A stretch of DNA of 64,000 nucleotides from positions 1,364,001-1,428,000 of the forward strand of contig NZ_CP031447.1 in NCBI RefSeq assembly GCF_003391095.1, read 5' to 3'. Made by a program: the position numbers and the translations under genes. Below are positions 36,333 to 37,586 of the stretch, piece after piece. Source of the stretch: Austwickia chelonae. GTDB lineage: Bacteria > Actinomycetota > Actinomycetes > Actinomycetales > Dermatophilaceae. Within the stretch, counting starts at the first letter, position 1. The number at the start of each line of letters is the position of its first letter. Below the pieces are notes generated by a model, which was not told the origin of the DNA, did not search any database, and was given only the letters and a program-made list of their open reading frames with translations.

Positions 36333-37586
36333 CTAGCGTCGAACCCCGGAGAAGACGACGACGACCCGCTCACCCGGTGTGATGCCGCTGCCCGCTCCCG
36401 CCCCGGGGAGGAGCGCCGCCAGACCTGCCGTCCCGGTCGGGGAGATCCGCTCGTCCAAGGCCTGGACCAGGGCGAAGGCCTCCTGTACCTGTTCCTCGGC
36501 GGCGACGATCGGCCGACCGCCTGAGGCGCGCATGACGTCGATATCGGCCTGCCAGTCGTAGGTCTCGTCGTCGAGGATGCCGTCGGCCAGTGATCCCGGG
36601 CTCTCCCAGGGCGTCATGAACTCCGGCCACCGGCTGCCGAGCAGCTCCGTGGGCACACCCTCGGCCAGCCGCCACGCCCGGTCCAGCGGGGCCCCGCCCT
36701 CGGTCTGTGCACAGTCGATGCGGTGCTGCGGGCCCAGGCCCCACGCAGCACAGGCAGCGAAAGCGCCTCCACCGACCTGGATCACGACACGGGCAGGGGC
36801 AGCCAAGGCTGCGCCCATCTCCCAGCCGATGGTCCGTCCACCATCCAGGCACAAACCGTTCTCCGGGCCCTGGACACTGAACGGAATCGCACCTTCGGCC
36901 ACCGCGGCACGGAAAGCCGCCACTGCAGGATCACCGGGCACCCCAGGCATACGTGGGCAGGCGTTGACCACCGCGCCGAGGTCGGTGAGAGCCTGCATGA
37001 CCGTCGACGAAGCGGCCTGCGGTACGTACACCTGGATCGGCCATCGGGCTGCCTTCGCCAAAGTGGCGGCAGCTATCGCCGCATTCCCGCAGGATGCGAT
37101 CGCCAACGGTGGACGGGGCCCCTCTACCAACCCCAACTCTTCGGCTGCCCGCAGGTGCAACAGAATCCCGACCAGATGGCGAGCCTTGTGCGAGCCGCCC
37201 ACATTCCCGGTCTCGTCCTTCACCCACAGCTCGACGCCGAGCCGCTCCGACAACACCGGGTGCGGGCCGAAAGGAGTCACACGAAAACCCGAGGCCACCT
37301 CCCTGGTCAGTGAGAGACAGGTCTCCTCGGACATGCCGCGGGCGCGGGCGAAAGCCCACCACGCCAGCGAACGGCCGTACCGGACGAAGGGGTTCGGATC
37401 GTCGATCTCCTCGGGGTCCGGCCCCGACACCACCGGATGCAGGACGTGGTGACAGTCTCCGGCCGCTGCAGACGGGCAGCGCCACGGATGGATCCGGTCG
37501 ACGGCGACCGTCGCACCGCACGTGGCACACCGGTAACCGGCGACCACACCGCGACGTACCGTGCCATCGGTCGCCGTCGCCGACAT
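36333..37586 (-). CDS. PLP-dependent threonine-synthase-like lyase in the purine locus
   Basis: A 417-residue fold-type II PLP enzyme. The N-terminus has a zinc-ribbon-like CATCG...C...C pattern (residues about 20-50). The cofactor lysine is in WVKDETGNVGGSHKARHLVG, and SCGNAAIAAATLAKAA and the glycine loop QVGGGAFAACAAWG bind the phosphate. In E. coli and relatives the gene beside ygeW and ygeY is ygeX, a 2,3-diaminopropionate ammonia-lyase. This protein instead looks like a threonine-synthase relative, so it may be a replacement making pyruvate or an oxo-acid from a diamino acid; that role is inferred from position. Its ATG overlaps the stop of a 34-residue frame. The stop codon lies in a CTAG adjoining an IS end. 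Confidence 0.75.
   Translation of the reverse strand: MSATATDGTVRRGVVAGYRCATCGATVAVDRIHPWRCPSAAAGDCHHVLHPVVSGPDPEEIDDPNPFVRYGRSLAWWAFARARGMSEETCLSLTREVASGFRVTPFGPHPVLSERLGVELWVKDETGNVGGSHKARHLVGILLHLRAAEELGLVEGPRPPLAIASCGNAAIAAATLAKAARWPIQVYVPQAASSTVMQALTDLGAVVNACPRMPGVPGDPAVAAFRAAVAEGAIPFSVQGPENGLCLDGGRTIGWEMGAALAAPARVVIQVGGGAFAACAAWGLGPQHRIDCAQTEGGAPLDRAWRLAEGVPTELLGSRWPEFMTPWESPGSLADGILDDETYDWQADIDVMRASGGRPIVAAEEQVQEAFALVQALDERISPTGTAGLAALLPGAGAGSGITPGERVVVVFSGVRR

Follow-up and report, generated by a model that had tools for sequence, protein, structure and literature searches.

A fold-type-II PLP enzyme in the ygeX position of a uricolytic gene cluster of Austwickia chelonae: a candidate non-orthologous replacement for YgeX

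The window analysed in this study is a 64,000-nucleotide stretch of the Austwickia chelonae genome (C1:1364001-1428000 of genome G000, which comprises 3,631,970 bases in 2 contigs); for A. chelonae LK16-18, from crocodile lizards, a chromosome of 3,628,119 bases and a plasmid of 3,851 bases have been reported (PMC6256576). The relevant features of the window are given below, together with a second PLP-enzyme gene, IP2, located elsewhere in the genome.

23361-24563, minus strand: XdhC/CoxI-like (YqeB-like) maturation protein (two E. coli YqeB matches, E 8e-14 and 2e-7)
24605-25207, plus strand: MocA-like molybdenum cofactor cytidylyltransferase (24% to E. coli MocA, E 9e-9)
25323-26852, plus strand: UacT-like urate/xanthine permease (38% to E. 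coli UacT versus 28% to XanQ)
26773-29955, plus strand: ygfK, Fe-S flavoprotein reductase (39% to E. coli YgfK over 1039 columns)
29960-31285, plus strand: ssnA, aminohydrolase (TIGR03314, 502 bits, cut-off 455.5)
36333-37586, minus strand: P0001, fold-type-II PLP enzyme with an N-terminal zinc-ribbon-like segment, in the ygeX slot (assigned from profiles, model and alignment)
37586-37690, minus strand: yqeA (carbamate kinase) remnant, 34 codons in frame, its stop overlapping the P0001 start (TGATG)
37787-39025, minus strand: ygeY, M20 hydrolase (TIGR03526, 596.7 bits, cut-off 321.5; 61% to E. coli YgeY)
39201-40493, minus strand: ygeW, knotted carbamoyltransferase (TIGR03316, 709.5 bits, cut-off 500; 63% to E. 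coli YgeW)
G000:C1:3475342-3476859 (within stretch L182, G000:C1:3466000-3485900): IP2 of the source genome

The elucidation of the reductive uric-acid pathway was published in 2025; in the portion of that paper drawn on here, the pathway ends with the cleavage of 2,3-diaminopropionate (DAP) to pyruvate and ammonia by YgeX (PMC12507026). Of the genes by which such clusters are recognized (xdh, ygfK, ssnA, hyuA, ygeW, and ygeY), four are located in the window, while a xanthine dehydrogenase of the selenium-dependent type (C1:980318 region; TIGR03311, 922 bits, above cut-off), accompanied by YqeB/YqeC-like genes, and a D-hydantoinase (C1:2832136; TIGR02033, 482 bits, above cut-off) are encoded elsewhere in the genome. 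The name Austwickia was not found in the open-access papers searched on uric-acid consumption. Homology of ygfK starts at residue 44, its annotated start being uncertain, and the true start of ygeW probably lies near position 40394, given that the family match runs from residue 37 onward. A transposase-like open reading frame and fragments, recognized by eye, were observed at 33800-36300 and 19580-20983 of the window; as the former region lies between the ABC-transporter genes that follow ssnA and P0001, the uricolytic cluster is split into two halves. Adjoining ygeW, on the minus strand at 41413-46202, are what we take to be dihydroorotate-dehydrogenase-like and pyruvate:ferredoxin-oxidoreductase-like genes, the products of which could serve as takers-up of pyruvate; this gene pair was likewise seen by ygeW in two other Austwickia stretches.

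Within the second half of the cluster, ygeW precedes ygeY and P0001 starts 200 bases after ygeY, all three genes being on the minus strand. The intervening yqeA has been cut by an in-frame internal deletion that left both ends of the gene and its TGATG overlap with P0001 in place, and an intact yqeA is present at the corresponding place in three other Austwickia genomes. P0001 itself is an intact open reading frame of 417 amino acids with an ATG start and a stop codon. Its product matches PF00291 (PALP) at 106.6 bits against a Pfam gathering cut-off of 35, which identifies it as a fold-type-II PLP enzyme and excludes a chance reading frame. An artefact or frame error was ruled out, since the frame is kept at 75 to 80% identity in three congeners, among them A. 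chelonae NBRC 105200 (G397) and Austwickia sp. TVS 96-490-7B (G446), where the orthologues likewise lie beside ygeY/ygeW. As the original prediction, made from the window alone, had stated, the gene following ygeY encodes the motif GSHKAR (residues 131 to 136, including Lys134) and a zinc-ribbon-like, cysteine-rich N-terminus (C20-x2-C23...C37...H47). Lys134 is invariant in the 50-row family alignment. The ribbon is dispensable in the family, because two of its cysteines are missing from the relative in Austwickia sp. TVS 96-490-7B (L075) and the entire segment is absent from that of G263 (L066).

A canonical ygeX gene elsewhere in the genome, the first of the two findings that would have counted against the original prediction, was ruled out, the best TIGR03528 match being an IlvA-like gene at 38.5 bits against a cut-off of 532, and none of the 149 genomes of the window's family harbors a match over that cut-off. 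P0001 gave no match to models of diaminopropionate ammonia-lyase (DAPAL, the YgeX type) at E<=1e-3, nor was any DAPAL model among the best 25 of the 28 families matched by 18 P0001-family members (1e-5); in a BLASTP comparison, E. coli YgeX and P0001 were 25% identical over 120 columns (E 0.004). P0001 nonetheless shares with YgeX the fold type, the slot beside ygeY/ygeW, and the position of the PLP lysine (Lys134, equivalent to YgeX Lys77). It also has the Q-x-G-x-G-[AS] loop (all compared rows) and, near the C-terminus, T/S-G-x-x-G, both of which are likenesses to DAPAL that set it apart from the threonine synthase (ThrC) row. It differs from DAPAL (TIGR03528, PRK08206) in its zinc-ribbon-like N-terminus, in GSHKAR, where E. 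coli MG1655 YgeX reads NAFKMLGG, in Cys166, and in forming a clade of its own. With active-site residues compared by alignment, YgeX Asp120 (T-D-G-N) corresponds to Cys166 of P0001 (SCGN), which is invariant in 50 of 50 family rows, and the position of YgeX Asp189 is occupied by serine; the NAFK motif and Asp120 by which a DAPAL is recognized are thus replaced by GSHK and SCGN. Both aspartates of YgeX, and Ser84 of serine racemase, whose position Cys166 also occupies, are presumed here to have functional roles. A further segment, DDETYDW (residues 339 to 345), was found in no other row of the fold-II residue alignment; neither its DD nor its TYDW varies in either of the two family alignments, the glutamate being replaced in 1 of 18 rows.

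The original prediction had described the enzyme as threonine-synthase-like, a description that holds for its predicted fold and less securely for its ancestry. The AlphaFold2 model of P0001 (mean pLDDT 90.1, pTM 0.91) was closest, by VIA-align, to plant threonine synthase (2c2b; Z 35.5, rmsd 2.6, 359 residues aligned), the likeness extending to part of the N-terminal region, followed by bacterial ThrC at Z 32 to 34 (6cgq, Z 34.2). Serine racemase (Z 32.9), threonine deaminase, and TrpB all fell at Z 30 to 33, and Foldseek's own ranking opens with serine racemase. DAPAL (5ygr) ranked 47th among the best 50 (Z 30.4, rmsd 2.9, 310 aligned), a match that, for this modelled structure, shows a shared fold and nothing more. 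With ThrC, serine racemase, DAPAL, and others all close, the fold by itself names no function for P0001. At the profile level, P0001 is unlike ThrC (TIGR00260, PRK08197), scoring 51.6 bits on PRK08197 (cut-off 303) and 34.8 bits on PRK05638 (cut-off 421), and its DDETYDW segment is missing from the ThrC row. The arginine of the ThrC NPxR segment, which we take to be phosphate-binding, is kept in the organism's own ThrC, and is Cys246 in P0001 and Thr or Ala in relatives from groups f15, f50, and f65. A role of P0001 as housekeeping threonine synthase was ruled out by this missing arginine together with the presence of a separate ThrC at L003. A further fold-II gene, L005 (G000:C1:238013-238930), is presumed to resemble OrtB of ornithine degradation.

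A tree of 37 fold-II proteins, including 17 rows of the P0001 family and 7 DAPAL rows (among them E. coli YgeX), placed the P0001 family in one clade at 100/100 and DAPAL in a separate clade at 100/99. As P0001 falls outside the DAPAL clade, it is not a YgeX orthologue, and the non-orthology that had been anticipated was borne out by profile, motif, and clade alike. P0001 grouped with TLu, a ThrC-like protein discussed below, and ThrC at 91/88 (85/84 in a rerun without the OrtB-like row), so that kinship with ThrC is moderately supported by the sequences. The tree that had been suggested, with YgeX and ThrC included, does not reject P0001 and DAPAL as a sister pair (AU test with the two held together, p 0.259), and P0001 with TLu (p 0.26) and P0001 with the dehydratases (p 0.136) are likewise unrejected.

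A census of the slot was based on 396 genomes, of which 25 encode YgeY over its cut-off. Fourteen of these 25 harbor YgeX over cut-off and four a DAPAL-like protein at 219 to 269 bits; P0001 with IP2 is present in three (G000, G061, and G234), TLu with IP2 in two (G267 and G297), and TLu without IP2 in one (G200), and in G157 none of the slot enzymes was found. P0001 and DAPAL do not occur together in any of the 25. A comparable picture emerged from 33 stretches, mostly uricolytic, of which 12 carry the P0001 type, 7 TLu, 5 DAPAL, 3 IP2 only (L189, L190, and L203), and 6 none of these (L194, L195, L196, L202, L222, and L223); in none of the 33 were two of the P0001 type, TLu, and DAPAL found together. 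In this count, G203 was scored as P0001-type from a 48-residue fragment at the edge of a contig (L188), and four genomes contributed two stretches each: G267 (L189/L191), G297 (L190/L192), G476 (L074/L222), and G446 (L075/L223). TLu is ThrC-like with a Cys-rich ribbon, and three TLu proteins score 280 to 311 bits on PRK08197 (cut-off 303). P0001 resembles TLu in its slot, often by IP2, in its N-terminal Cys-rich ribbon, and in the loss of the ThrC phosphate arginine (absent from the NPxR segment of 5 of 5 aligned TLu proteins). The two are only approximately 24 to 28% identical, however, and TLu, unlike P0001, lies near or over the PRK08197/TIGR00260 cut-offs and has SxKDR and STGN motifs.

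A P0001-family gene is present in 19 of the 396 Actinomycetota genomes (E<=1e-50), the family being cut between 8e-60 and the next match at 1e-10; of 173 genomes with matches at E<=1e-3, 154 were dropped as general fold-II homology. In the window's family, carriers are 6 of 149 genomes and 3 of 53 genera. At least 79 P0001 loci were identified from 549 related stretches, and among the matches listed, the named carriers include Propioniciclava tarda, Ilumatobacter, Desertimonas, and many Ilumatobacteraceae MAGs. P0001 adjoins ygeW/ygeY in 4 of 4 Austwickia genomes. In f15 and f50 MAGs, a P0001-type gene lies beside ygeY or a second carbamoyltransferase gene, xdhD, ssnA, hyuA, and yqeA, and across f15, f50, f65, f16, and f33 the neighbors of P0001/IP2 comprise xdh subunit genes, ssnA, hyuA, yqeA, and ygeY or the second carbamoyltransferase gene. 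This second gene, where ygeY is not adjacent, was observed to be aspartate-carbamoyltransferase-like (L065:111-890, with homologues in L062, L063, L064, and L184-L186); such actinobacterial clusters may rely on carbamoyltransferases for the removal of both ureido groups.

IP2 is a second fold-II protein of approximately 505 amino acids, which is cysteine-synthase-like by profile and fold. Its best structural match is O-acetylserine sulfhydrylase 3tbh (Z 28.0, rmsd 2.9, 304 aligned), a likeness to the cysteine synthase/cystathionine beta-synthase (CBS) group; it differs from cysteine synthase in its TIGR01139 score (64.7 bits, cut-off 351), and from both in a C-terminus some 100 residues longer and in TAHK as PLP-lysine motif. 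At E<=1e-20, IP2 is present in 27 of the 396 genomes, including 19 of 19 with P0001, a co-occurrence with a chance probability of approximately 2e-26 for independent genomes or 8e-6 by families, both values being too small on account of relatedness. Among the 79 loci listed, IP2 is directly upstream of P0001 in 69 and 1.0 to 2.6 kb upstream in 3; the 7 in which it was not seen are three Austwickia loci, that of P. tarda, and three lying less than 400 bases from the end of a contig. In each of the four Austwickia genomes, IP2 occupies another locus; in the source genome it is divergent from a neighboring gene that we take to be adenosine-deaminase-like and lies close to one that we take to be alcohol-dehydrogenase-like.

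The occupied slot, the missing YgeX, the presence of one of three alternative enzymes, and a yqeA remnant that has kept the overlapping P0001 start point to P0001 as the likeliest terminal DAP enzyme. We consider it probable, on these comparative grounds, that P0001, although not an orthologue of YgeX, takes its place as the terminal DAP-degrading PLP enzyme of the reductive uric-acid pathway. In the reaction that we infer, PLP would be held by Lys134 and DAP would form an external aldimine; the C-alpha proton would be removed by Lys134 in the case of L-DAP or by Cys166, at the position of YgeX Asp120, in that of D-DAP; and the beta-amino group would depart as ammonia, leaving an aminoacrylate that would hydrolyse to pyruvate and ammonia. 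P0001 would most likely work with IP2, the two sharing one metabolic step or acting in successive ones. Weighing against this assignment are the absence of conservation at YgeX Asp120 and Asp189 (Cys and Ser), the location of the Ilumatobacteraceae and P. tarda genes apart from uricolytic neighbors (for P. tarda, neither a uricolytic gene nor IP2 lies within the stretch around P0001), and the Austwickia MAG G476 (5% contamination), which has both P0001 and an unlinked DAPAL-like gene (PRK08206, 292 bits, cut-off 276; TIGR03528, 210 bits). The use of two PLP enzymes where YgeX alone suffices is also unexplained.

One rival explanation is a two-step ending, in which IP2 exchanges the beta-amino group of DAP (yielding serine, for example) and P0001 eliminates the product to pyruvate and ammonia. 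The profile, sequence, and fold of IP2, all closest to cysteine synthase/CBS (a beta-replacement fold), the serine/threonine dehydratase PRK08246 as best P0001 profile match, and the near inseparability of the pair are consistent with this scheme, but the slot of G200 holds TLu without IP2 and the EPAG-type segment seen in the dehydratase rows has no counterpart in P0001, and we regard the scheme as unlikely. An improbable reading, too, is that P0001 is another amino-acid enzyme (threonine-synthase- or cysteate-synthase-like, or a racemase) that is a mere neighbor of ygeY, with DAP degraded by, e.g., IP2 alone: its fold is nearest to ThrC (Z 32 to 35.5) and its neighbors are non-uricolytic in Ilumatobacteraceae and P. 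tarda, yet the ThrC phosphate arginine has become Cys, Thr, or Ala beside a resident ThrC, and uricolytic stretches have one of the three alternative enzymes and never two. A stereochemical split, in which P0001 and IP2 take one DAP isomer each or one of the two racemizes DAP, seems very unlikely. TLu, also paired with IP2, has Thr at the Cys166 position, which speaks against such a split, although a conserved Cys at the YgeX Asp120/serine-racemase Ser84 position, and the equal activity of YgeX on L- and D-isomers and the D-stereospecificity of HyuA given in the portion of PMC12507026 drawn on here, would suit it.

If P0001 and TLu do end the pathway, 6 of the 11 YgeY genomes outside f19 and f40 use another last enzyme, which is masked when annotated as a threonine synthase or a generic PLP enzyme, and it becomes concrete to ask why a second PLP enzyme, IP2, should be needed; the assignment would also bear on the stereochemistry of DAP in the pathway, a question taken up in the part of PMC12990295 drawn on here. 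A published neighborhood map, as described in the relevant part of PMC12507026, counts YgeX by Pfam family PF00291 and, because P0001 also matches PF00291, is blind to the replacement. Neither a YgeX replacement nor the P0001 family was described in the titles and abstract openings of the open-access papers searched. The partner IP2, the wide distribution, and TLu as a second alternative in the slot are additional to the original prediction.

A broader and more tentative reading, to which we give somewhat less than even chances, is that P0001 and IP2 constitute an unrecognized two-enzyme PLP ending of reductive purine degradation in Actinomycetota, which would have displaced YgeX, with TLu as a parallel case and Cys166 acting as acid/base for Asp120, and which would reach Ilumatobacteraceae, a family in which an SsnA/XdhD-like pair is found at a locus apart from that of IP2-P0001. 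Group f29 was taken as Ilumatobacteraceae from the gene order that it shares with named loci. In this family, IP2-P0001 lies by clpP, apart from ygeY/ygeW and other uricolytic genes. All 10 f29 genomes encode an SsnA-like protein at 212 to 250 bits, below cut-off; in 9 of 10 f29 stretches a gene is 56 to 67% identical to the SsnA-like neighbor flanking IP2-P0001 in G263, and in 5 of 10 an XdhD-like partner (66 to 75%) is located near it. These sequence matches fit, and do not prove, a dispersed reductive purine pathway in Ilumatobacteraceae-like genomes. In L212, L213, L215, L217, L218, and L221, SsnA-like and mostly also XdhD-like genes were observed unlinked from IP2-P0001, and two of these six stretches carry a YgfK-like gene as well.
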